Assembly: GCA_006384855.1 (NCBI GenBank)
Contig: VCJN01003285.1
Location: forward strand, 123,903-187,902
Origin: Tetraselmis striata
Taxonomy: Eukaryota; Chlorophyta; Chlorodendrophyceae; Chlorodendrales; Chlorodendraceae
DNA: 64,000 nucleotides
Direction of reading: 5' to 3'
A model generated the notes under the pieces. It was given only the letters and a program-made list of their open reading frames with translations. It had not been told where the DNA came from and made no database searches. Positions 36,421 to 64,000 of the stretch are shown in pieces (position 1 is the stretch's first letter; each line of letters starts with the position of its first letter). Both the position numbers and the translations under genes were made by a program.

Positions 36421-37055
36421 GCTGACCCTGCTAGTGAAGGTCGGCCCCGCTCGCGCGCAGGCGTGAAGCAGGCGAGAGCTGCGCGGGGACGGCCTCGCCC
36501 GCACCCAAAGAAAGCAGCGGATGGCTTTCAAACGGTGTTGACGACTATTACGAGCTGCGTAGCTGCGAAAGCTACTAGCATCCTGGTCGGGTGGTGTGAA
36601 GACTGGGTGCACAAATAGCGCAGAACTGTATTGGCGGGACCAAAGGCGTGAGATCAGCGCGTGACAAGCAGCGGACGAAGCTTGCGCGCTGCCGCCGCGC
36701 TCCCTCCTGGCCTGGCCTGCTTCGCTGCGCGCGCGCCGCCGCTCAGCGCAAGCGACGTAGTCGGGCGGGGTTCTGGGGCGGGGCGGTAACCCTAGGGATA
36801 TAGTCGGGCGAATAAGGCGTCAATTATTGTCGCCCTACCCTACCCTACCTCACCGGCCTCGATGCTCTCGCCCGCCTGCATTCCAGGCTACACGACAGCG
36901 GGCCGGCGCGGCGGGGCGTAGCACCGGCAGCGGCTTGGACAGTCGCCGACGCGCTTTCCGTCGCTGGCGTTGCCGCGGGCGCCGCGTGGGCGCCGAGAAT
37001 TGACGCCGCAGCCAGGTCGCTCCAGCCCGCCCGCGTCAGGCACCACCCGGCCGAT
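36421..37055. other. Intergenic segment between divergent ORFs
   Basis: It is very GC-rich and includes CCCTACCCTACCCTACC at 36834-36850. The plus-strand frame of the reverse transcriptase is open for some distance upstream of 37056, so its true start codon may lie here. Confidence 0.4.
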
Positions 37056-40000
37056 GTGCTGGCTTTCACCGAGGTCGCCGCCGCGTGGCTAGCCAAGGCG
37101 CGCGCCGTGTTGGCCGAGCGGCACCGCCGTCGGGGGGCGCGCCGCGCCGGTGGAGCTGGACAATCGTCGGTGCTGCCGTCGCCCGCACTGCCGTCCGTCG
37201 CTGCGTTCCGGGGCGTCGCAGCGCCCCCGGTTGTTGCCCCCACGCCGCCAGAGGTGGGTGCACCGGCCGGCCACCCCAGTAGCGAGGCCTCACGGGCTCG
37301 GTATCCGCCCCCCCCTACTCGCCCATCTCCAGCCGGCGACGGGGTGGGGTGGGGCGCGGTGGACCACCTCTCCGACGTGGACATGGTGCACATGCCGGCG
37401 GAGATGTCCATGGAGACGGCGGTGCCGATTGACTTTCAAGAAGCGTGGGCAGAGGCACAACGCTGCGTGAATGAGCGGGTGGTGGCGGCGATGGAGGCCA
37501 ATGACCCCGTGGTGTTGGATAGGGCGCTTAAGTGGAAGTACCTGTTGCCACAATTGTTGCTTAGGGCCCCGAGCCGAGGCGGACGGCGGCGGCTGCAAGC
37601 CTTGGCGTGGCGCTTCCGCGCTTTCGCGGAGAGGCGCATGACCGAACTCGTGCGCTCATGGGACGATGCGCGCACTGACGCGTTCTACGCCGGACATGCC
37701 CGCCAGCGTCGGACGGACGCCGATCTCTTCGCGGCGCTGCTCGTGGGCACCGCGGACACCGTTGTGGCGTTGGTGGAGGACGGAGAGCTCTCCCGAGCGG
37801 CGGGCCGACTATCTTCTAAGGGTATGGGCGACTTGTCCGATCCCGATATCCTCGCCCAGCTGCGCGACAAGCACCCGTCCCGTAGCCACCCGATCCCAGA
37901 CGCCGCGTATGCCATTCCGGTGGACGAGGCCGCCCTGACGGTGGACATGCGCGTGCCGTACCAGCAACTCAAGCAGCACGTGGCGGCGGGGCCCTCAGGC
38001 ATGCGCAACGAGTATCTCCGCTGCTTGGTGGGCGAATACGCCCCGGCGTCCGGGCCCGCGGCAGTCCGCGCCATGTCGGAGGTTGCCTCCATGTACCTCC
38101 AAGGCCGCATGCCCGGGTGGTTCAACCGGCTCTTCGCCTCTGCTAGGCTCGTGGCACCTGTCAAGAAGCTAGGCGAGGGGAGGGCCCCGGACGTGCGGCC
38201 TGTGGCAGTCGGGGAGGCGGAGCGGCGCGCAGCGGAGCGGGCAGTGGTTGACAACATGAAGGAGGCATACGTGTCGGTGCTCGCTCCATCTCAGCTCGGC
38301 GTTGGCATTCCCGCGGGCGACTCTGTGCTCATCCACGGCGTCCGGCTCATCGCCGAGAAGCTTGGCCCACGTGCCGTCATCGTCCACACAGACCTTCGCA
38401 ACGCTTACAACGAGGCATGGCGCCGCACCATCATCCAGCGCCACATCGATTGCTCTCCACTACACCCTGTCATCCCTGCGCTTCTAGCCTCCCTCTCCAC
38501 GGACTCGTATCTGGTCGTGGACGACCGGTCCGCCCCTCTGCGGTCGGAGGACGGCGTGCAACAGGGCGCACCTTTGGCCACGACTTCCTTTTGCGTCGCG
38601 ATTCACCCCGAGGTGCAGCAGTGTGATACCACGTTGGAGGTCAATGACGGGGCGGCGCGCTTCAACGCCGACGATGGAATTTTGGTGGGCCTTCCGGAGC
38701 ACGTTTGGCCGGCTCTTCACGCCTTCCGCACGTCCATCAAGGCGTCCGTGGGGCTTGAGGTGCGCTTCGACAAGATGCAGGCGTACAGCGCAGACATGGA
38801 GGCGGCGCGGCGTGAGACTCCGGCCGACATCGAGTGGCCAGAGCTAGATGGCCATCACGGCATCGCGGTCCTCAACGTGCCGCTCGGATCGCGAGAGTAT
38901 GTGCAGGCGTACATGCGCGGCAAGGCGGAGGAGCTACGAGAGGAGGTGGACGCTAGCCTGAGCAAGCTTCTGTCTGCCAAGCCCAGCCGTCGGTACACCC
39001 ACGCCTTGCATCACCACGCATGGGCCCTGCTCAAGCATTGCATGCAACACAAGGCGGGGTATTGGCTCCGCAATTGTCTTCCGTCCGAGGTGGAGGCCTT
39101 TGCGGAGGCGGTGGATGCCACCATCCTCGCGGCGGTCGAACGGGTGCTAGGGGTCTCTTTTGATCCCTCCACGTACGGCACTGACACCAATCCGGTGGTC
39201 ACCGATTTCTTGGCGGAGCTTTTGCACGACCCCGACCCCATGGCAGCGGAGGTGGCTACCTTGAGCGAGGTTGCAGTGGCCAGGGCGCGCAGCAGGCTTC
39301 ACCTCCCCACTCGATTGAAGGGAGCTGGCATCCGCCGCATGGCTACCGTTCGTGATGCCGCCTTCATCGGCTGCATGAACGCCATCCTCCCAAGGTTCCT
39401 GACTAGGAACTCCGGCACCAACACCCCCACCCCTGGTTTCTTCGACCCACAGCTCGGGTCCGTACTTGGCCGAGGCAGCTTCAACGCAAATTCTTCCGCC
39501 CGCCAGTATGACCACTTCCTCAACGATGCTCATGGGTCGGACAGCTACGCCGTGGAGATGCGCGAGGCGTGGGGCCGCCTCCAAGCGGCTACTGCTGGCC
39601 ATCTCGGTGACGCAGATGCACGCCAGATGGAGCGGGAAGTGGAGGCTGCGTCGGGCTCGCAAAAGGAGCTGACGGCATTTCTAGACCAGGCCAACAACTC
39701 CCGGCTTCGAAATGAGGTGTGCGCTCTCCCTGCCACATGTAGGGAACGGATCTTGTTCAACCAGCTCGACGCGGCGTCAGGCATGTGGACAGTGGCCATC
39801 CCCACCGCGCGGACAGCCATGACTCCGCATGAGCTGCGAGAGGTCGCTGCCGGGTACTTCTTTCTGCCTAGCCCGTGCTTGGCCCCGGTGGTTGGGTGCC
39901 AGATTATTCTGCCCTCGACGGAGCACAACCCCGTCATTGTTGATCTATACGGCGACGCGCTCATGAACCTCCCGGCGCCTGGAGACGCTCACTGGCGTGT

Positions 40001-40796
40001 ACAGCACGACGCTATCGCAGATGCCTTCCGCGATCACTGTGTTCACGACCTAGGTATCGCGGTACGGCGGGAGGTGGATGACTTGTTCCAGCAGGCAGTG
40101 CCTCTCGGCAACACCGTACCCCGGGATGAACTCAAGGACCTAGTGCCGGACGCAGAGCTCTCCCTTCCGGTGTTCAACGTCGTGACCGGGAGCTATGATC
40201 CCCGGAGCTTGAAGTCCACGCTGCTAGAGTTCAAGACTATGCGGTACGGGGTCAAGTACACTTCGGTGCCCCGGGCCACAGCTGTGGATCGGTTTGAGCG
40301 CTCCCTGTTGGGCGACATACAACGGGGGTTGGCTGCGCGGGACGCGGCGTGGCACAACACAGAGCCCGGACAGAAGGGTCCTCTTCGAGACATCCTGGAT
40401 ATGTCGGAGTACACGGGCATGGTCTTCGGCACAGTGGGTGAGGTGAGCAAGGGGGTGCACCGCACAGTGCGTGGTATCGCATGCTTGGCTGCGGACCAGG
40501 GTGCCCTCTCATCGCGGGGCACTCGGTGCATCACCCGGGCTCACCAGGAGGCCTTGCTCGCAAGAGATTTCCTCGGGGTCCTGAGCTTGGTGGCCGCTCG
40601 AGAGCGTGCTCGCTGCCTCATCAGACGGCGCAGATTCGTCTCCCATCCCGTTGCTGAAGCTGCACAGCACGTCCGAGGAATGATCACCTACACACACACG
40701 TGCTCGCGTGGCCCGGACTCTGAACCGTGTGCGCATCACTCATCCATCCCGCCTTATGCGGGATGCGGGCCGCTTTTAGGCGGCTTGCTGTGTTGA
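37056..40796 (+). mobile_element. Reverse-transcriptase ORF of a non-LTR-type retroelement, with possible C-terminal PD-(D/E)XK nuclease
   Basis: An uninterrupted ORF of about 1246 codons; the first ATG is unclear because the frame is open upstream. The N-terminal 100 residues are Ala/Pro/Arg-rich. Reverse-transcriptase motifs follow in order. Motif A is VIVHTDLRNAYNEAW (Asp near residue 446), motif B is GVQQGAPLATTSFC (about 500), and the catalytic box is FNADDG (about 536), a variant of the YADD box. A C-terminal stretch has a conserved-looking HWRVQHDAIADAFRDH, then VPDAELSLPV (about 1030) and LLEFKTMRYG (about 1057). These fit a PD...E-x-K nuclease and would place it near non-LTR elements with a restriction-like endonuclease (R2, CRE, NeSL type). 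No integrase, protease or RNase H is seen. The intact frame suggests recent activity. A dead relative lies at 29577-30104. Confidence 0.85.
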
Positions 40797-41164: not shown

Positions 41165-42430
41165 ATGCCCGCGGACTCGGCGTCTGGGAGCGGAGGCGCC
41201 GCGCGCGAGGATGTTTCGGCGGCAGCGTCTGCCGAGGCAGGGGGTGGCGGGCTGAGGGAGCCGCTACTCGCAGGTCAACCCCAGGGTGAAGAGCACGCCA
41301 GGCCGCTGAGTCCCACGCACCGCATGAACACCGCGGTTGGCCTGTGGCTTATGGTCATCAGCTCGTTGTTCTTCTCGCTGATGACCCTGCTGGTACGCCC
41401 CGTTGCTGTGCTGGTGCCGTGGGTTTGTACTGGTAGGGTATGACGGAAACATGCATTGCCAAGGAGCAAAACAATAAGCAGCCTCACCATCTCGTTAGGG
41501 ATACAATGGAGGATTGGACAAGCCCTGAGTGATTGGCTGCGAATCGCATGGACGCTGACATAGCCAATTCAAATTGCGCTTCCTATCCTGAATGATTATC
41601 AGGTGAAAGTGGGCTCCAACCTTGGCATCCCTTCCTTCCAATTGGTATTCGCGCGGTCCATCCTCCAGCTGCTCTTTGCGCTGTTCTCATGTGCAATGGC
41701 GGGCATCCATCCTCTAGGCCCTCGCGATAAGGCTGGCTGGATGTTTGCCCGTGGCGCCTGTGGTGCGCTTGGTTTGGCTGCCATGTTCTTTGCCATCAGT
41801 GTCATGGACCTTGGAGACGCGACCACCATCTTCTTCACCGGTCCTGTCTTCACTGCCCTCTTTGCCTACGCCTTCCTGGGGGAGGCACTGACCGGTATCC
41901 TAGTGCTCGCTTCTTTGCTAAGTACGACCGGCGTCACGCTGGTGGTCCGCCCCGCCATTTTGTTCCGGCATACAGTGGACCCCATCTCTGCGCAGGCTGT
42001 GCTGGGGGCAGCGTGCGCGCTGGGAGGAGCCGTGCTTGCTGCAGCTGCATATGTTATCGTTCGCAAGGTGGGGACGCAAGTTCATTTCCTTGTAAACGTC
42101 ACATGGTTTGGTCTCGTCAGTAGCGGGGCATCGCTCGTAGCAGCTTTTGCACTGCAGCAGCCTGTGGTTCCAGACGCGCAGCAATGGGCTGTTCTCCTGG
42201 GGGTCGGCGTCATGGCCTTCCTCGGCCAGTGCTGCCTCAACAGTGGCCTGCAGCTGGCTCCAGCGGGCCCAGGCACTGTCATGCGCAACCTGGACGTTGT
42301 CTTTGCTTACGTCTACCAGGTCACACTGCTCCATGACCCAGCGAACCCGCTAAGCGTGGTGGGCGCGGCGCTTGTGGTGAGCTCCGCTGTCCTGCTTGGC
42401 GTGGCTAAGTGTGCCTCTTCTAGACATTGA
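41165..42430 (+). CDS. EamA/DMT-superfamily membrane transporter
   Basis: There are two exons, 41165-41392 and 41603-42430 (1056 nt, 303 usable codons by my count from this start), joined in phase 0 by a 210-bp GT-AG intron. A Ser/Ala/Gly-rich hydrophilic N-terminus of about 50 residues leads into about ten hydrophobic segments, beginning GLWLMVISSLFFSLMTLL. Recognisable EamA features are SFQLVFARSILQLLFALF, the first-repeat motif GDATTIFFTGPVFTALFAYA, FLGEALTG, the second-repeat VIVRKVG, and GTVMRNLDVVFAYVYQ. The family exports or exchanges small metabolites (amino acids, nucleotide sugars and others); in eukaryotes the closest groups are SLC35G-like proteins and plant WAT1/UmamiT-type relatives. 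The substrate and membrane cannot be read from the sequence. The first ATG in frame was chosen. A TGTAA lies 32 bp past the stop. Confidence 0.9.
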
Positions 42431-47844: not shown

Positions 47845-50800
47845 ATGTTTATGCAACGGCCGCAGGGCGGCGGTGCGGCGCCGGAGAGCGCGCTGCAGAT
47901 CGCCGGCGAGCGCACCAGCGGCGACGATGTGCGGATGCAGAACGTGACCGCCGTTACTGCGGTCGCAAACATCGTTAAGACGTCTCTGGGGCCCGTGGGC
48001 TTGGACAAGGTACGCGACATGCGCGTTGGTGGCTCGCCGGTGGCAGGATTCCCCGTCATATCCCGTCTCCGCTCCGGGCCGGTCTGCCAGGCTGTTGGAT
48101 GCTTTCCTCCGCGTCCCACCACCCGCGTGCTCTGCCGCGGGAAGCATACACTCGTGCTCACAGCGCGCCCTATATAAACCTGGCATGGGCTCGCCTCGCT
48201 GCATCGAGGCATGCTGCGCGGCTACCCCCGCCCGGCTGGTCGCTGACCCAGCCGGGATCTCCTCGCGGCCCTGTACCCACCCACCCGGCGATCTGTGATC
48301 CCTTCATCACCCCTCCCCTCCCCTTTCCGGTGGGCTACAGCAAGTACCCGCCTTCTCCGAAATCTCACATGCGCGGCTTTGATTGACGCTCCACCTGGGC
48401 CTTTGGCACGTACTGTAGATGCTTGTGGACGACATCGGCGATGTTACCATCACCAACGACGGCGCCACCATCCTGAAGCTGCTCGAGGTTGAGCATCCTG
48501 CTGCAAAGGTCCCCCCCTCCCCCTCCTCCCCCCCCCCCCCCCCCCCCTCCCGCATTAGCCTTGCCTTGAAGATCTGCCCCCCTCCCGCGTCCTCCTGTCC
48601 CACTTGCCGCGGTCTCACGCGCAATGCGCTGCCTGCCCGCAGATCCTGGTGGAGCTGGCTGAGCTGCAGGACCAGGAGGTCGGCGATGGCACCACTAGTG
48701 TGGTCATCGTGGCCGCTGAGCTGCTCAAGCGCGCCGGCGAGCTTGTGCGCAACAAAATCCACCCCACCTCCATTATCGCTGGCTACCGCCTGGCCATGCG
48801 CGAGGTGTGGCCGTCAATCAGAGCCTTAAGCACGTCCCTCGCCAGAGCGCAGCGCCTGCAGCTCCTGACTGTCGACTTGTCACTATGGCCCATGCGTTGT
48901 AGCGCAAGTCCAGTGCTGATTTCTTGCCATTTTGCCTCCATCGCCACTGCTCCCAGGCGGTGAAATACATCGAGGGCAACATCGCAATGAGCTCAGACAA
49001 GCTGGGCAAGGATGTGCTCCTCAACGCAGCCAAAACAGCCATGAACTCCAAGATCATTAGTGGCAACGGCGACTTCTTCGCCAAGCTGGTTGTGGAGGCG
49101 GTGCAGAGCGTGCGCTACATCAATGACATGGGCGAGTACAGGTGCCACCCCGCCTCACCCTGCAGCTCCCTGCCACTCCTCCCCCCCCCCCCCCCCCCGC
49201 TTCGGGTTAGCAGCGTGTCGCGCGGGGAAGGTGGTCAGCCTGCTCCACCACTGCCGACAGGTATCCCATCCGGTCAGTCAACATTCTCAAAGCGCATGGT
49301 AAGAGCGCCACGGAGAGCGAGCTTCTCAAGGGGTACGCGCTCAACATGGGCCGCGCTGCGCAGGGCATGCCAACGGTGAGCCCGCCCTCCAGAGAAGCTA
49401 GTTGTGTGCCATGGGTACGCTACGCCCCGTTGTGGTGTCTAGGCATTGAGCTGCTGCTGACCTCTTTTCACCCGCTCCTCTCGCGCCTTACACAGCATAT
49501 CAAGGGCGCCAAGATCGCTTGCCTGGACATGAACCTGCAGAAGTCCAGGATGATGCTTGGCGTGCAGGTGCAGCTCCCCCGCTGATATCGCTAGCATTGA
49601 ATTTCTGAACCGACCCATGGCGCTGCTAGTTCCTCTCCTCACCTCAGTCACCTACTCCACTTTTACCCACCATATGTGCCCCGCTGTCACCAGCTGTACC
49701 TCTCTCTTCCCCCCCCCCCCCCCCCCCCCCCAACCACCTACACCCTTCAATTCATTTTATAGTGATGTGCACTACCTCTGTCCAACCTGCCCGCCCCGTG
49801 ACCCACAAGTCGTTGGTGAAGCATGCAAGCTCTCGCCCCCCCTCCACTCATCCTTGCCTGCCCCGAACAGGTGCTGGTGACAGATCCCGCAGAGCTGGAG
49901 CGCATCCGCGACCGTGAGAGCGACATCACCAAGGAGCGCATCCAGAAGGTGCTGGCATCGGGCGCCAACGTGGTGCTGACTACCAAGGGCATTGACGACA
50001 TGAGCCTGAAGTACTTTGTGGAGGGGGGCGTGATTGCGTGCCGGCGCGTCCCCAAGGAAGACCTGCGCCGCATTGCCAAGAGCAGCGGCGCCACAGTGGT
50101 TACCACGCTCGCGGACATGGAGGGCAACGAGGCCTTTGACACCGCGTTCCTGGGGCATGCGGAGGAGGTGGTGGAGCAGCGCGTGTGTGATGACGACATG
50201 ATCCTCATCCGCGGCTGCAAGACCACGCGCTCGTCGACGCTGCTGCTGCGCGGCGCCAACGACTACCTGCTGGACGAGATGGACCGCTCGCTGCATGACG
50301 CCATGTGCATCGTGCAGAAGGTGCTAGAGAGCGGGCGGCTCGTGCCGGGCGGCGGCGCCGTCGAGGCTGCGCTCTCCATCTACCTTGAGAACTTTGCCAC
50401 TACGCTTGGCTCCCGCGAGCAGCTCGCCATCGCCGAGTTTGCAGATGCGCTGCTGGTTATCCCCAAGACGCTTGCAGTCAATGCTGCCAAGGACGCGACA
50501 GAGCTGGTCGCAAAGCTGCGCGCGTACCACTTCACCTCGCAGGCCAAGGAGGGCAAGGGGCATCTCGCGCACTATGGGCTCGACCTGTACAACGGTGCGC
50601 CCCTGCCACGATGAACCAGCCCAGCCGCCTCTGCCCCTGTGCAATATCGTGAACTGGCTGGGAGAGGAAAGCGGTGTGGCTGGCAAAGGAAAGGGATGCC
50701 CCTGGGAGGCTCAGAGGTTATGCGTCAATTTGTGGCTGTGGATGCGTCTGTGTGGTGGCTGAGCGCCGATGGGCTCAGGGAGAGGAGCAGGAGGGGCGAG

Positions 50801-53456: not shown

Positions 53457-56400
53457 ATGAGCGCGCTGCTAGAGCTGGCGCGCCGCGCCAACGCGGATTC
53501 GGTAGCCATGGCGGAGCTGCGGCGTGCCGTGCTGGTGCCCGACATCTCGCAGCTCCTGGAGGACCTTCGGGCGGCGGTGGAGCAGGACCCGCGCAGCCTG
53601 AAGGCGCCTCCCCCCCCCTCCCCCCCCCCCGCCTTCTGCCCCCTCCCGCCGATTTCCACCCCCGAGGCACTCCACTGCAGTCGACACCGCTCACCTGAAG
53701 CCTCACAGTGGCGCTGCCCCCGCTGCGAGCAGGGCCATCTGTGCGCCGTCTTCCTGGCGCTGCAGGCCGCCGCCAGTGACAGCGAGGCCACGCGGCAGCA
53801 GTGCAGCGAGCGGCGACTCGACGTCATCTGCGCCGCGCTACCCTGGACAGCAGGCCTGTCGGAGCGCGATGCCGGCGTGCCAGAGCTGCTGACCGAGCTG
53901 GACCTCGCGCCCGTGGAGGCGCTGCCGGAGGCGAGCCCAGCCGCATCATACCCCACTCCCCCACGCAGCATCAAGCGGCTCGCCTTGTCAGCGTTGCTGC
54001 GGCGACAACGTGTCGATGCACCCGCAACTGGGCACGCCTCACCAGCGAGTGCCCGCCACTTTGCAGGTGATCGCAGCCATCATGACAGAGTTTCAGCGCC
54101 GCGGGGTGGAGGGGCTCAACGCACTGGAGCTGCTGCCCAAGTGTCTCCATCTTGTTCAGGCGGCGGACACCGTTGCCCCGGAAGGTGGCTCTGCCCCCCA
54201 ACCCCGCCCATCCTCAGTTTCAAGCCTGCTGCAGCCCAACTCCAACCCTGTTCGCAGCGCGCGCTTTCGACCCATCTCCTACCCCCCTGACCTCCACCCC
54301 CGTTCTGCCTCCACCGCCCCCCCCCCCCCCCCCCCCACATACCCAAGTTGGTTCCCCCATAGCGGCGGGCGCGTACGTGGACCACATTCTGGAGCAGGTG
54401 CTTGGCATGGGATGGCCGGCGGGCGGTGTGGCACGCGTGGTGAAGATCCTGCGGGACATAGCGATGGCGCCCAGGCTGCGGATGGAGGTCGCCAACAAGG
54501 TGCTCCTTGCCACGGTCTTCCGCGGGATGAGGATACGGGGACGGGTTGGCTGCTGCTGTGAGGCCTTGCCCGTCGCTGGCGGGCTTGGCGTTGGCGCACG
54601 TATATGCCACCCAGCAGATGGTGGAGCACATGGGGCGCCAGGCGGCCCGCAGGCGCTAGCTGCACGTGGCGTGGCGATGCGTTCATGCCTGCCTGGACCC
54701 TTGCACCGCCGAAAGGGTTTCAACTGATGCAAACGGCCATTGCTGCTCACAGGCCCTGCGCCACTGCCGAGAGGAAAAGGCTCAGGAGCTGCCGGCGCTC
54801 ACGTACCAGCTGCTGCTGCTGCCCAGCAAGGGCGGGAAGGGCACCGTCCTCAAGGTGGGGCGGCCGCCTTGCTCGTGGCCCCCCTGTCAAATGCAACCGC
54901 CCGGAAAGTGATTGACGTGGTGCTGCGCCGGGCGTCGGGTGGCAGGGCCTCGTCGAGGAGGTGTCCCGGCGCGAGGAGAAACTGCGCGGCAGGGCGGATG
55001 CCGACTTTAAGGTGCGACCTTGGCGTTGCACCGCGGGCAGCTTGGAGAGAATGTCGGCAAGCAGCAGCGTGTCTGAGCGCGGCGGCATGACACTGCAGAT
55101 GATGCTGGAGGTGGAGGGCACGCTGCTGCTGCACATCAATGCCGCCTGCAAGCAGGACAGCGCGCTTTTCCTGGTACCCCCCGCCCTTTCTCAGACCTTC
55201 ATGTGCAACTAGGAAGATGCCACATGGTTTATGGACAGGGACTCACCAACTTGGTCTGCTGCCCGGCTTCCCTTCCCTAACTGCAATACTGAACCAGGAG
55301 CTGGCCAAGCTGCTGAAGACAGAGCCGTTGCCGCCAAGCGCGTTCTTTGTTGCGGTGGTTCTTGCCGCGGCGCGCATTCCCAGCTTAGAGAAGGACGCGC
55401 TGGACCTCCTGCGAACCGCCGTCACTCAGGTGAGCCTCAGCCTGAAACACCTGTGGCTTCCAGCTCCATCATTGTTTCAGGGATGCCAACCCACCTGTCG
55501 CACACGAGCATTCCCTGCGGCCAGCTGCGCCCAGTGCATGCCGCCAGCGTGCACCCCTGAACGACCATCGTTCACCTGGCAATAAGGTCCATCCTCCTTT
55601 GAACCCCATCACCCAGGGCCCACCTCCCCGCCCCGCAGAGCCGGGCACCTGCGTGCACACTCAAACATGGCATCCACCGCGCCCCTCTCACGCGCCCCTC
55701 CCCCCCCTCGGAGCGCAGGCCTTCGTTGACGAGGAGCGCGTGGCTGCCTCCGCCTGGGTCTGCGCCTTGAAGCAGCTGCCGCAGCGAACGCGGGGGAAGC
55801 GGATGGTCCAGGCGCTGCACCTTGCCCTGGAGAACGCCGGCTACGGGTAACCCCCCCCCCCCCCCCCCCCCCCAACCCTTAAAACACATATAGCTTGCTT
55901 CATTAATAGGAATCGCCGACCGTCCAAGAAGATATTTCCAAGATACGATATGCTCTTTGCCACCCAACAGTGTATGAAGAGCAAGTTGAGGAAGTGCCTC
56001 TGATGTTAAGAAATTGCCTGTGGGCAACCTGAGATTGTCTTATGTCTGGGTTCAAATAGGTACGTTGGCACTCGCGGTGTAAACAGGAATTTAAACAAGA
56101 CTATGTACGCGGGCAAGGTTAAGCTACCGCTCGCAGCGTCCTACCAGTTGGCCCTCTGTGTGTTTGTGAAGCGCCATGACGGCCCGCTGGCGTGCGCTCA
56201 GGTGGGAGCTGGTGGTACCGAGCTTTGTGAAGCTGGGCACGGTGCTCATCGACCGCGCCGGTGCAAAAGCCAGCATCGCCGCAGCAAGCGCAGAGGCAGC
56301 CGAGCTGGGGCCTGCCGGCGCCCACCTGGCGGCGGGGACCTGTCCTGCGCCCACACGAGTTGCTGCCCTGGGGATCAGCCTCCTCCAGGTCTAGCCCCCC

Positions 56401-59400
56401 CCCGCCTCCCCCCCCCCCCCCCCCCCCCCGCCCCGCCCCCACCTCCTCCCCCCTCCGTTCACCCCGAAGGGGGAAACCCCCTTGTTGGCAGCATCGAATC
56501 TTACAGTGTACCCGTGCCCCCGCCCCATTCCTTGGCACTCTCAGGAGTGCTTCCGGACGCATGTCATTTCACAATCAGAGATCCTATCGCAGTGCCAGGT
56601 GGAGTTGCCCCAGCCCCCCCCTCTGTAAGGGCAGCCCCCAGCTGTTCCTGCAGATACCGCGGCCTCGAACCCTGCATGTGCGCTGGGATCTGAGTGAGCG
56701 GTGTTGCCCTGGGCTGTGCCCCTCGGCAGGCACACCTAGTGGGCGGCAAGGACGCCATGCAGGGGCTGCCCTACATCCGCGTGCTGGCCGGGGCCGTGCG
56801 CATCGCGCCGGAGATGCTGGGCGACCATGCGGCCGCACTAAAGGTGCTCGCGCCTGCCTGGCCACCGGCGCTGCCTCCATGCTGCCTCCACTATGGATGT
56901 GTGTTGCGGGAGAGGGCGCAGGGTGACAATTGCTGCGCTGCGCTGCTGTGTGCGTCACGGCGCAGGACTGCCTGGAGATGCTGCACTTCCTGCCATCCAG
57001 CCTGGGCTTTGCGCTGATGCTGGCACTCTGGCCGCTGGCGCAGCTGCGGCGCGACTTTTGGGACCACTCCGTCATCATCCTGCGCAAAGCCATGTTCAGC
57101 AAAGAGGTCGGCCGCCTCCGGCACCCCCCCCCCCCCCCCCCCCCTCCCCCTCTCCCCCCCCCCTCTTGCCCTCTGCCATTTCCTTGTCACCTCACCACCC
57201 TCTGCCTACCGCGCAGCCACCCTGCACGGCTGCAATGACTCGGTGCTGAGCCCTTTTGTCCTTTAACTTCACTGACTGGCCAGGTGGGCAGCCGCCTCAT
57301 TGCCGCGCGCGGCTTCCTGCACATGATGGTGCAAGACCTGAAGGCGCCAGCCCCATGGAGCGGGGCAGACGCCAGCCTGTCTGCCTCGAGCAGCAGCCAG
57401 CTCAGCCTGAGTCAGATGCAGGTTGGAGTGCATGCAGCTGCCCCCCGCGGCCAACCCCCTCTGCCTTTTGGGTTGGGGGTTCGGCGGCGGCCGTTGAGTT
57501 GCTTGTATCTGTGCCCTTGCAGGCCTTTTCAAGCGGGAACGGCCCGCAGGGGCTGCTGACAGAGCTGCGCGGCTTCCTCAGGCGCTGCCTTGCGCAGCAG
57601 GTAGGCCCAGCTGCCCACACAGCCTGCCGCACCACGGTGTTTCCTGCGGCAAAGTAGGGTCGTCGAGCAACTTCAGCTGGGTGTGACCCCTGTGGTTGCA
57701 TGCGCAGGCATGCATCCGGCAAGTGGTGTATGAAGGGCTGGCCAAGCTGGTACTGACCGACCCCGCGGCGCTGGAGCCGGTGCTGGAGCTGCTGCTGCCG
57801 CAGTTCTGCAAGTTTTACGAGGTGGGACTCACCCGACCCAATCCACCCATCTCTGTATCCGCCCGTTTCCTTGACATCTTTTCCAGTTTCTTCTTCTGCG
57901 CCGCAGGCATCGCCATTGCCATGTATCTGTATGTGTGTGCTTTTGAGTGCATGCATGCATGCATGCATGCTTGTTCACCACTCCACCGTCCTTGTCCTTT
58001 TACTTCTATTCACTACTCGAGTGACCATTTCCCCCGCACCGCACCACGCTCTGCCCCCGCGTGGCTGCCTGAGCAGCCCGCTCCGCGCCGCTGTTGCGGC
58101 AGGCGGACGAGAACCTGTCGGCGCCACTCAAGCTGGACACGTGCGTGGCGCTCCGCAGCGGCAGCTCTGCACGCCTGGTGGAGCCGCTGGCCCACCAGAT
58201 CGCGTGCCTCCGCCAGCTCCTGTCCATGCACGGAGACGGCCGTGCTTTGGCTGCTGATTCCCTGGGCGAAGACACGGAGCTGACCACGATCGGCCTGGGG
58301 GACGACATCAGCCCAAGCCAGCAGGCTCGGCAGCCAGGTGGGCGGCTCGCCATCCCGCTGCTGTGCCTCAGCACAACTGGCCGGCGATCGGGCCAAGGGG
58401 ATGCCGGGGAAGTAGTGTGGACGGGGCAGCATTGGCCTTATCTCGCTCCCCGAAGCATGGGCTCCGCGCGCTGCTTCCTCATGGTCACTACTGCTGTCTC
58501 AACTATTGATCATATTCAACTGCCCGACAATGCGGTTTCGTTGTGCATCGAGTAGGTATCCGTACTAGCATAATGTAGTACCTTATTTGATGGCGGAATG
58601 ATGGACTTGACATTGGCCATACACACATACGTATGCCATTGCATGTGGATGGGATGGCCATGTCAGCATGCCTAATAAATACCGGAAGCGTCAAAATACT
58701 CGTAACCTGTCACAGTCCTGTATGTCCTCCGGAATTGTGATGCGCCCCCCCCCCCCCCACCCCCCTCCCCCCTTCCCCTGTTTGCCTCTGTCATGCTGAA
58801 TATAAGCATATCGTAGGAACCATGGCTGTCAACAAGCCTGCCTTTGCCTTCATGCTACCACGGCAACGATTTCCATCATGTTGCCTCTGCTTAGCATGTT
58901 GCCGGTCCGTGCCCGTGACGGCCCCCGCGCAGGCCACGTCCTGCTGCCGATGTTTCTGGCGATGAAGCGCCGGCTGCTGGACGCCGAGCTGGAGCACTTC
59001 GAGCTGGACATCAGCCGGGAGTTTGGCCTGGACAGCGCGGAGGGGCGCGCCCACCTCGCGATCGCGGACTGCCTGCTGGGCACTCTGGAGGTTGTGATGG
59101 AGGACATCACCGCGGCCGCCATGGGCGCGGAGGGCGGCACCCTGGCGGCGCTGGCAGACGACATGGGCAAGGCCTTCGAGCTTCACAGCCGGCTGTTCAA
59201 CCTTGCGGCAGAGCGTGGAGGGAAGGGCGCCAGCGGCGCCAGGCTCCCTCTCAATGGTGCGGCCAGCGGCTGCTGCAGCGTGAGCGGCCTGCGGGGCGCT
59301 GAGTGTGAGGTGGGGCAGGGGTTGGCGGTGGAGGCGGGCGTTGACTCCACGCGTGAGCTGCGGGTGATTGTCTGACGATCCTGCGTGCGGTAGTGAATTC

Positions 59401-60457
59401 CGTACAGGCGCCCCTGCGGGGGGGGGGGGGGGGGGGGCGGAGGAAGAGAGGGGAGAGGACCTGAAGCGAGTCCTGTCATGCTTGCAGGCGAGCCCGGCTC
59501 CCAGGCAGTGTCAGGGAAGCGCGGTCGATCTGCAGGGGGCGGCGGTGCGGGGCAGACGGAGGAGGCGCCGCTGCTGCCGGTAGAGCGCCGGCCGCCCGTG
59601 ATGAGCGGAGAGGCGCTGGGGCGGCTGCTCAGGCTCATCGTGGACGGAGGCCTGCCACGAGAGGGGCGGCGGGGTGGCGCTTTTGCGACTGGCGGCTCTG
59701 AGGAGGAGGTGGTCGAGTCCGCAGAGGAGGAGGAGGAGGAGGCCGGCGACGGGGAATCAGCCTTTGCGGCGCTCAGCCGCGAGCCGCGGTTCCAGGCGGC
59801 CGTGCTGCGCATGTGCAGCGCCCGCTTGGCGGCCACGGCGGCGGCGGCGGCCAGCCAAGGCGCGCTGCTTGCGGGCTGCGGAGGCGACGCCGCGGCCGCG
59901 GTCGGCGGGTTGGGGGAAGGCGGCCAGTGGGAGGCCATGGCGCCGCCGCTGGTGCAAGCCGTCTACCTCACGGTCATGGCGCGCGCCGGCATCAGCGGCG
60001 CCCACTCAACAGGCACGTGCGAGAGGACACCCCTGTCGACGCAGAGAGGGCGCTGTCATGCTGGCTAGCTTGGCCTGAACTTGCGCCCGACCCCCCCCCC
60101 CCCCCCCCCCCGCCCCCCCTCCCAACCATTCCTCCCTGTGTACTCCTTCCCTCCCGGGTCTCACCTTCAGCATGATTGTGCATACAGGTGCTCAGCGCAA
60201 GACGGGAATGCACGTGGGCAAGAAGGACAAGGACCCGAGCGACCAGCTGTCCCTGCTGTCGGTGTGGTCCCGCCCTTGCCTGCGATGCGATGGATCGTGC
60301 GGCGCATCGGTCTTCGATTGCGAGGGCCGGGCTGGAAGGCATCTGTGGCGTCTGCTTGGCAGGCTGAGTCGGAATGGCGCGAAAGCCAGGCAGGCTGACA
60401 GCCAACCACCAGGACCATGCCGGAGAGGCTGGCCATTTACTGATGGACTGATGGACG

Positions 60458-60497
<40 letters not shown>

Positions 60498-60500
60498 CGT

Positions 60501-60564
<64 letters not shown>

Positions 60565-63500
60565 ACTGGGCTTGTTCAAATGTGAAGTAGTAATTGCTAT
60601 TGGTGCTTACTGAAAAGACATGAGTAGCCGCATTTGTCAAGTTCCGGCGTGATTTCATACCTTTCTCATGATCATGCTAGTAGCTGCCAATGATTCCATT
60701 CAGGCTTGTTTTGTGTTACACGTGTTGGGACAGTTTTGCCAGTGTGATTAAATCTCCTTGGTTTGTGCCTTTTTTTGAAGAATGCTTTCATCAAGTCGAA
60801 CGGCGGGGGCTGCTCATGAGGAGGGTGTGTGTTGCGGCAGGTGTCTGTGGTGAATGCAGGCAGGGGGCGCTGAGTGTGCGTGGGTGGGTTGTAGCTGCAG
60901 TGCCTGGAGCAGCTGCTGCGCGTGGCGCGGAGCAAGGCGGCCGTGGCGACCATCCTGCGCCAGGTGGAGGTGCCGGCAGACGAAGCCATCAACACCGCCG
61001 ACCTACCAGAGGCGGACTGGGTAGGGCCCCGTCCGTGACCAGAGAGCCCGCTGCCGCTGGGTGTGGCTCACTTTTGGCCAACTTACAAATGTGACGCGGC
61101 TCAGCGGGCCCTGACCCCGAGAAGCGCCGTGCTGCCTCCCCAGGATGACCACGCGAAGGCCATCTACAGCCGGATGGGCCTCTTCAGGCGCATGCTGTGC
61201 AAGCTGCTCGAGACAAGCACCTTCAAGGTCTCCCCCCCCCCCCCCCCCCTCTCCATCACTCTCGACTCCAAGGCGGCTAGAGCTGACTGATAGAGATTGG
61301 AGCTGGTCCTATGAACGTCGGCACGATGAGGCGGCGCGGGCGCGTGGGGTACCGGTCCATCATGTATCACAACATAAGGCTACCAGCATGAAAGCTGGAG
61401 TCAGGAGTGACAGGAGAGCATTTAGCGCCGTTGCACTGGGTCCAGAAAAGTGTTTTTGACCCAAGTCTTTTGCAGAGTTGAGTCGGAATACCTGTGCAGA
61501 TTTCGTTGTGCGTGATGACAGCGTTCAAGGAATATTATAACACGGTTTTTTGACTATTTGCCAGGTGGGGCGCAGGGGGGGGGGGGGGTCAAAAGCACCA
61601 ACATCTATATGGTACTCAATGCCTGGTTTTGCTTGGAGGCAAATATCTGCCAGTACTAAATCAGCTGAGGATTCATGTCATCATGTTGGCCGCTGATTGC
61701 TCCGACCAACAAGCCGTGACCGACACTGGGAAAAAAACACGCCGTGCTTGCCGTATCCTGTGAGCACAACTCGTCCCTAGTTTGCGGAGGGCTATGCACG
61801 AGTTGGGTGTTTGCACTTTTGTCCAGACCTTGGTGACTGAGGGCGCTGTGCCTCGGACTGCGTATAGCCCCTCGCTCGAACACATGGAACACCATTGCGC
61901 CGTTTGGTTCCCAAGACTCCAGCTCAGCCTCCGACTCAGGGCTCTAAATTGCACAAGCAGCCAGCTCACTCCCCCCCTCCCCCCCCCCCTCTCTCCCCCC
62001 TGCCGTGAACGGCCTGCAGGGTGTGGAGATCCTGGCCGGCGTCATGGCGCAGCTCGGCGAAATGCTGCCCCCCGCAGGCCGCTCCATCCTCAGCAAGTGG
62101 GCCAAGGCAGCCTGCATGTCTCACGAGGTGGCGCATCCGGTGAGCAACCCCCCCCCCCCCGCGGCCCCCTTCCTTCTCCCCAGACAGGCACACCCACCCC
62201 ACATTCGCCCCCTCCGCATAACGGCGACTCCCACATGAGCAGACCGCTCATCCTGCTGCTCCGCAGGGCGCGGCCAAGGCGTTGACGCACGTCCTATTCC
62301 ATTTCTTGCCTCCCAAGGATATCCAGGTAGGGGTCGCCAATGCACCTGCCATAGCAGTGTCCCCCGTCCCCCCGCTCCCAGTACTCTGCCCCCATGATGT
62401 CCAAACCCCCCTCCCCCCCGCCCGCTTTCCTCCCAAAATGCGCAGGACGACCGCGGCAGCCTCCAGATGGTCACGGAGCAGCTGCAGCTGGTGTGCGGGA
62501 CGAGCAATGCGGCTGGCGCCACCCGCTCGGAGACGCTGCCGGTGCGTCGCCGCCTCAGAAGTGGCTGCAGCCTCACCCAGCGCAACAGGCAGCCGGGTCG
62601 GCCCCCTCCTCAGACGAGCACCCAAATTTCCACCTGCTACTTCCGGACGCCAAATATCGCACCATCTACATTGGAATCGTGTCCCCAAAACAGGCATCGC
62701 TTTCGCTGCGTCACATCGGAATGTGTGTGCACTGGGCACGGAGTGTTCCGAAGGATTCCCGGATAGGGGAATCAGTGGTTCAACGTTTGCGATGGCGTCA
62801 AAACCACTTCAGCTACGGGCCAATAAATGTATACCGTAGTGAACCCAGAGCGTCTTTACGGTATACATGTACATGGCCCGCAAGCAGATAGACCAGGTGA
62901 GCAAGCAGCAGTGGGGTTTTGCGCTCAAAGCATTTCTGCCATCTATCCCTCTGAGACCATTGTATTGAGTCCACGGGTCCCAAGCAACAATATGATAAGC
63001 TGTTCCGCACCATCAAATGGGATATTCTGTGCCATGTCCGCGATGTATTCCGATATGAACAGGCTTTGATGACTATACCGGCGCGTCGCTGAACCAGCAC
63101 GGCTTCCCGTAAGCTGGATCGCTGCCTAACTAAACGGCCGTCCTAGGGACGCTGCTAGCAGGAAGGGTTTCACTGTTGCCGGTCCTGTCCCAGGGGGGGA
63201 CCAGTGGCAGCACAGCGACAACTACTACAAATATTAATACGACTACTTGATATGGGCGCAGGAATGATACAGGCGGCAGCTTCCACTCTGCGTTTATTCG
63301 TCTCTGTCTCGGCTGGCATCAGTTCGCCGGGGGACTCCCAGATGAATATTGATCTGTCCTGATATTTGAGAGGGGGGTGAAACGACCAATATGTGTGGAG
63401 ACTCCCAAGGCGCGGTGACGACAGGCCGTGCTACCAACACATATGCAGAATCATGAGACTAGCAACGCCTTCCATTCGTGTGATTCCGTCCGGCAGCTCG

Positions 63501-64000
63501 ATGGACGCGCCGCTCCGGAGGCCGGGGCTTGAGCTGCCGCCGGCCTGAGCGCGCGGGGCGGTGTGCTGGCGCAGGCGCTGAACGAAAAGACCAGCGGCGC
63601 GGTGCTGGCCGCCACGCTGGATCATGTGGACGGCAGCTTGAGGGACGTGGAGTGGCTGGTAGGCTCGTTCCGGGTACGCGCCACACGGGGGGAGGGAAGC
63701 TGCCGCCCCCCCCCCCCCCCCCCCTCCCCCTTCTCACCACCACCACCACCACACGCACACTTGCTACCGCATTTCACCCAGCATGCCCGCCAGCTATGTT
63801 CGCAGGGCGGTGGAGCTATTTGAAATTTGAAGTTCCTTCCAACTTTGTTCCTGCCAGTCTTCCAACTACAGAGGCCAGCTGTCTTAGGGCCCGGCTGCAC
63901 AAACCCGCATAGGGTCGGCCGTAGCCCGTAGCATGCAGCCCTCTCAAGGCCAGTTCCCGGGATCCATAAGAGAGTGGTGTCCTCCTCGTCCCCCCCCCCC
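53457..64000 (+). CDS. FANCI: Fanconi anaemia group I protein (FANCI), 3' end beyond the window
   Basis: FANCI pairs with FANCD2 as a clamp on DNA and is monoubiquitinated during interstrand crosslink repair. The gene has more than 20 short exons. Clear ones are 53457-53603, 53733-53930, 54067-54184, 54363-54499, 54753-54854, 54946-55011, 56966-57106 and 57284-57421; the rest are placed by conserved blocks only. In order I see ALELLPKCLHLV, LPALTYQLLLLPSKG, LEVEGTLLLHINAA, FVAVVLAAARIP, FVKLGTVLIDRAG, LHFLPSSLGFAL and VIILRKAMFSKE (the Lys is the ubiquitination site by alignment). These are followed by SSSQLSLSQMQ, LRGFLRRCLAQQ, VYEGLAKLVL, LLPQFCKFYE, LDAELEHFELD, an acidic run near 59700-59760, KTGMHVGKKDKDPSDQLSLL and HVDGSLRDVEWLV (about 63618). 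All follow the order in animal FANCI. The C-terminus, including any nuclear localisation signal, is missing. Several exon edges between 55020 and 63575 are uncertain. Confidence 0.9.
57086..57088 (+). other. Codon for the conserved FANCI monoubiquitination lysine
   Basis: The codon AAA lies in VIILRKAMFSKE. In human FANCI the ubiquitinated Lys523 lies in a near-identical LRKAMF context. The match is seen in the sequence; that the residue is modified in this alga is inferred. Confidence 0.8.
57387..57421 (+). other. SQ cluster in FANCI
   Basis: The exon ends with SSSSQLSLSQMQ. Human FANCI has an SQ cluster (Ser556, Ser559, Ser565) at the same distance after the ubiquitinated lysine, a target of ATR/ATM-type kinases. 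Two of the three SQ sites seem kept here; the middle one is absent. Confidence 0.7.
57950..57972. repeat. GCAT tetranucleotide microsatellite
   Basis: About five ATGC/GCAT units occur within an intron of the FANCI gene. Confidence 0.9.
60455..60500. repeat. Perfect 46-bp palindrome: ACGGGG, 17 AT units, CCCCGT
   Basis: The block is its own reverse complement and lies in a FANCI intron. A second TA run follows at about 60507-60562. Such sequences readily extrude cruciforms. Confidence 0.95.
62829..62870. repeat. Short hairpin with 12-bp perfect arms
   Basis: ATGTATACCGTA and TACGGTATACAT lie about 17 bp apart in a FANCI intron. They form a stable stem but have no other visible meaning. Confidence 0.7.
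63801..63912 (-). repeat. Dispersed repeat family R4, copy C, inverted, in a FANCI intron
   Basis: Read on the minus strand it gives GCGGGTTTGTGCAGCCGGGC, AAGACAGCTGGCC, GGAAGACTGGCAGGAACAAAG and a TTCAAATTTCAAATAGC-like end. This matches copies A (23515) and B (24697). It lies downstream of the last recognisable FANCI exon in the window. Confidence 0.65.

Follow-up and report, generated by a model that had tools for sequence, protein, structure and literature searches.

Does the end of a 64,000-nucleotide stretch of DNA from the green alga Tetraselmis striata encode FANCI, one partner of the FANCI-FANCD2 (ID2) clamp of DNA crosslink repair, and are the sites that control this protein in vertebrates retained? 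The stretch, called the window below, is C2651:123903-187902 (contig VCJN01003285.1) of an assembly of 224 Mb in 2903 contigs (GCA_006384855.1), and its end coincides with the end of the contig (64000). The window is read with high confidence as holding the first ~1240 codons of a green-algal FANCI orthologue, half of a predicted activatable FANCI-FANCD2 crosslink-repair clamp.

Identity and gene model of FANCI

Exons were assembled from the sequence into a FANCI model of 26 exons (window 53457-63673, + strand) that encodes 1240 residues and is free of stop codons. In a Pfam search of the joined protein, the FANCI S1, HD1, S2, and HD2 models (solenoids 1 and 2, helical domains 1 and 2) scored 57.4, 35.9, 101.2, and 130 bits, all above their cut-offs and in the correct order, with E-values of 1.1e-37 for FANCI_HD2 and 8.2e-29 for FANCI_S2. 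Comparison with solved structures returned seven distinct sequences at E <= 0.001, every one of them FANCI (E 6.4e-61 to 8.1e-55). The match of the predicted protein to FANCI is far beyond chance, and the initial annotation, which had called the gene from the letters of the sequence and had named the Pfam search beforehand as a check, was borne out by both comparisons. The FANCI Pfam set is given as PF14674-80, seven models (PMC11061109).

The first 848 residues were also compared with the 224-Mb genome at E <= 0.001, and all 18 matches fell within the FANCI gene itself; two of them contain a stop, and both overrun an exon edge into an intron. This FANCI is the sole copy found in the assembly at that threshold.

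Splice sites were picked by hand with human FANCI as a guide, and exons 1-2 and 19-21 are therefore the least certain. The introns are GT-AG in 24 of 25 cases and GC-AG in one (60013-60187), and this GC-AG intron is required for the model to remain in frame. The GC content at codon position 3 is 85%, versus 60% in the introns; runs of at least eight C occur in 11 of the 25 introns (window 53577-63574). Coding sequence was traced up to 63673, the contig runs to 64000, and the gene is unfinished within the window: because the contig stops there, the FANCI C-terminus is missing, and the remainder of solenoid 4 must be located past the contig end. The features of the model are as follows.

53457..53576, +, exon 1, ATG start, amino acids (aa) 1-40; intron 1 uncertain, because read-through from exon 1 into exon 2 also stays in frame
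53733..54011, +, exon 2, aa 41-133, weak donor CGT/GTCGAT (slash at the splice point)
54067..54184, +, exon 3, Pfam FANCI_S1 match begins
54363..54499, +, exon 4
54753..54854, +, exon 5
54946..55011, +, exon 6
55099..55173, +, exon 7, FANCI_S1 match ends
55298..55429, +, exon 8, helical domain 1
55719..55846, +, exon 9
56202..56388, +, exon 10, solenoid 2 begins
56545..56598, +, exon 11, serine-glutamine (SQ) at aa 457 and 463
56730..56843, +, exon 12
56966..57106, +, exon 13, contains LRKAMF
57086..57088, +, codon AAA of K545, human K523 equivalent
57284..57421, +, exon 14, serine-rich SQ loop
57395..57412, +, codons from S589 (57395) to S594 (57410), with Q after each of the two serines
57523..57600, +, exon 15, helical domain 2
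57708..57821, +, exon 16, helical domain 2
58103..58337, +, exon 17, helical domain 2
58933..59256, +, exon 18, helical domain 2 ends
59488..60012, +, exon 19, low-complexity; followed in the model by the GC-AG intron
60188..60261, +, exon 20
60901..61020, +, exon 21
61144..61227, +, exon 22
62020..62139, +, exon 23
62267..62326, +, exon 24
62446..62541, +, exon 25, partial solenoid 4 begins
63575..63673, +, exon 26, last before the contig end; continuation expected beyond

The two exons proposed initially to carry the control sites (56966-57106 and 57284-57421) are identical to exons 13 and 14. Their lengths, 141 and 138 nt, are both multiples of 3, so that skipping either would preserve the frame.

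Putative target lysines and predicted ubiquitination partners

The lysine of LRKAMF, expected to correspond to human Lys523, is K545 of the model. It was paired with human K523 in a structure-sequence alignment in which algal residues 478-545 and human residues 456-523 run ungapped, and likewise by MAFFT. In human FANCI this site is buried in the ID2 interface (PMC8624177).

The genome was searched for the pathway partners FANCD2, FANCL, UBE2T, UAF1/WDR48, and FANCE, and the three that the initial annotation had proposed to look for (FANCD2, FANCL, and UBE2T) were all found. All six FANCD2 matches (E <= 10) lie on contig C1293, 79902-101537, and four of the six were marked above the cut-off, one of these only jointly with its neighbours. 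A segment on this contig, EDELHIVITKQLSS, matches human FANCD2 546-587 at equal length (22-63), and the lysine of its ITKQLSS motif corresponds to human position 561 by the equal-length spans and to chicken position 563 in the ungapped printed alignment. The FANCL_C search gave eight matches, one of them above the cut-off, namely a RING exon on contig C1011 (E 1.4e-20), and all four PDB sequences matched by this exon are FANCL; among 14 control genomes searched with FANCL_C, E. coli matched, below the cut-off. Exons of UBE2T were located on contig C2516 with a human UBE2T sequence as the query; once joined, their top six PDB sequences were UBE2T, at 195 bits versus 145 to the next ubiquitin-conjugating enzyme (E2), among the best 60 of 317 matches. 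Both genome matches to UAF1/WDR48 were above the cut-off, and all 10 PDB sequences matched are WDR48. For UBE2T and WDR48, the pieces were put together by eye and their splice sites left unchecked.

The C-terminal exons of UAF1/WDR48 are located at C2651:52694-53208 on the minus strand, which places them on FANCI's own contig, ~124 kb upstream and outside the window. The sharing of one contig by UAF1 and FANCI is probably chance. Fungal FANCI and FANCD2 show a tendency towards co-occurrence with genes for ubiquitination, deubiquitination, or endonucleases, which UAF1 did not follow (PMC11061109).

The genome sequence thus contains a predicted FANCI gene, both putative target lysines, and candidate genes for the E2, the RING of the ubiquitin ligase (E3), and UAF1. 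These predicted partner genes support an activatable clamp, though no new kind of clamp.

The SQ loop after the lysine

The motif SSSSQLSLSQ had been equated with the SQ cluster of human FANCI. Its two serines that precede a Q come after K545, S589 by 44 residues and S594 by 49. The phosphorylated sites of the human protein are S556, S559, and S565, of which S556 acts before ubiquitination and S559/S565 act mainly after it, against USP1-UAF1 (PMC8624177, PMC7010609). MAFFT places S589 on human S559 and S594 on human S565, with no Q following the S556 position, while HMMER pairs S589 with human S565 and leaves S594 without an SQ partner. Because the two programs align the loop differently, equivalence at the level of residues is not secure; the part of the proposal that holds is the presence of two SQ motifs in the right loop.

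The chief alternative is that FANCI is genuine and the SQ pair is a chance product of low complexity in a serine-rich loop, without kinase control, and this is given somewhat less than an even chance. Of the 46 residues of the loop, 10 are S and 4 are Q, and shuffling it produced at least two SQ 20% of the time (P 0.20), which, with the disagreement between HMMER and MAFFT, speaks for coincidence. So does a second close SQ pair, ISQSEILSQ at aa 457/463 (exon 11, 56545-56598), which belongs to solenoid 2 and not to the known SQ cluster. Against coincidence, the SQ motifs occur in the homologous loop and MAFFT sets both on S559 and S565; when the composition of the whole protein was used, at least two SQ fell at the loop position in only 0.6% of shuffles (P 0.006); and the protein has 8 SQ in total versus 3.2 expected. 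An SQ pair no more than 5 residues apart appeared anywhere in the protein in 154 of 5000 whole-protein shuffles. Position in the loop supports the original SQ claim, composition leaves room for chance, and by itself the SQ pair is not clearly beyond chance; S589 and S594 are plausible candidate phosphosites.

A more specific proposal, which is unlikely, is that the algal FANCI keeps only the clamp-guarding SQ pair (S559/S565) and lacks the priming S556-Q, in which case kinase control would protect the ubiquitinated clamp and would not license ubiquitination. If true, SQ control by clamp protection might be the more ancient version of the switch. The algal loop offers a comparison point for the relative ages of the phosphosites known from vertebrates; in one open-access library, no paper was found on the phosphorylation or conservation of the FANCI SQ cluster in plants.

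Predicted repair function and comparison with known systems

By analogy with the animal ID2 complex, complex formation, ubiquitination, phosphorylation, and a repair function would be expected in the alga. At stalled forks, FANCI and FANCD2 would associate on the DNA, a single ubiquitin would be attached by UBE2T and FANCL to FANCD2 (at the K561 equivalent) and another to FANCI (at K545), this ubiquitination would close the pair as a clamp, and USP1-UAF1 would take the ubiquitin off. The SQ pair beside K545 may allow an ATR-type kinase to protect the ubiquitinated clamp, as vertebrate S559/S565 do. Of the regulated clamp envisaged initially, FANCI, its lysine, and the partner genes are in place, and the regulatory role of the SQ pair is weakened by the ambiguous alignment and by composition.

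It is improbable that FANCI-FANCD2 is kept chiefly for meiosis or replication-fork upkeep and not for crosslink repair, given that Arabidopsis fanci plants are hypersensitive to mitomycin C (PMC12541362), as are Chlamydomonas fancd2 and fancm knockout lines, from which the authors conclude that the Fanconi anaemia (FA) pathway is functional (PMC8604939). The inference of a pathway in T. striata is backed by the partner genes, yet such a pathway is already established for green algae. Conservation of both control sites had been considered informative; both the lysine and an SQ loop are seen, but the finding is less informative than was thought because the pathway had already been tested with mutants in Chlamydomonas (PMC8604939).

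Several points weigh against the clamp reading. The FANCI gene model is predicted from the DNA only; the FANCI_S4 match is partial (positions 2-59 of 250, 20.8 bits versus a cut-off of 25.3); and two further FANCI models, those for the S1 cap and S3, gave no match in the protein at E <= 0.1. A FANCI_S4 search of the genome gave no match to the FANCI C-terminus on other contigs, and genome searches with the N-terminal FANCL model (FANCL_d1) and for FANCE gave none by an exon-wise method that also missed the FANCI_S1 domain. Since FANCI_S1 had no match in the genome search and is nevertheless present once the exons are joined, such exon-wise misses say little. It is hardly credible that the contig holds no working gene of the alga, being a contaminant or carrying a copy in decay: the gene is known from DNA sequence alone, its C-terminus is lost at the contig end, and the contig is assigned to the alga through membership of the assembly only, but the frame is open across 26 exons, a second copy was not found at E <= 0.001, and contigs elsewhere in the assembly carry the partner genes.

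Elsewhere in the window, a 1326-residue open frame at 36816-40793 (+) has a weak RVT_1 match (23.2 bits, below the cut-off of 29.6) and is probably a retroelement, a reading frame at 41564-42427 (+) is of the EamA transporter type (88.1 bits), and an exon of a TCP-1/cpn60 chaperonin gene lies at 49820-50611 (+; 234.7 bits). Searching the genome for the chlorophyll a/b-binding family also gave 63 matches. The best of them, a gene on a contig other than that of FANCI, resembles many light-harvesting complex II (LHCII) chains over nearly its full length and fits a green alga; the two top rows of this PDB comparison are multi-domain chains, and their scores, being sums, cannot be set against those of the single-domain LHCII rows, and the LHCII entries matched are presumably from green algae and land plants. 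Many of these family matches have identical scores across contigs, some with stop codons, and the assembly may retain both haplotypes or many recent copies.

Among known systems, the closest structures are 6vaa, 3s4w, and 6tnf, which we take to be human, mouse, and chicken FANCI. Vertebrate FANCI shares with the algal protein the domain order S1-HD1-S2-HD2, to which a partial S4 match below its cut-off may be added, and the K523 equivalent followed by an SQ loop; over the ~200-residue segment that spans the lysine and the SQ loop, identity is 33% (6vaa) and 30% (6tnf). The two differ in that human FANCI has SQ at 556, 559, and 565 whereas the alga has two SQ and, in MAFFT, no Q after the S556 position, and in that solenoid 3 and the S1 cap are unrecognised by Pfam in the alga.

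Arabidopsis FANCI (AT5G49110) resembles the algal protein in that its lysine 520, which plants and animals have in common, corresponds to the human site, and differs in having 13 exons versus at least 26 in the alga (PMC12541362). The FANCI tree of the same study includes the green-algal GAB4818334.1 and red-algal PXF46357.1 orthologues, and its lysine alignment, according to the legend, covers human, Marchantia, Arabidopsis, and barley, without an alga (PMC12541362). Chlamydomonas is a green alga with a working FA pathway, as is expected for T. striata from its genes; the available text of that study uses 'FANCD2-I complex' and does not contain the word FANCI (PMC8604939). A FANCE homologue is reported for Chlamydomonas, and FANCC is not, in the available part of PMC10085685. 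Dictyostelium and early-diverging fungi differ from the alga in lineage and, like it, keep FANCD2, FANCI, FANCL, and UBE2T as a minimal set, and UAF1, present in the alga too, is reported in Dictyostelium (PMC11061109). T. striata is one more green alga with the predicted central parts of ID2 monoubiquitination (both lysines, the E2, the E3 RING, and UAF1), and these parts are consistent with the pathway being ancient.
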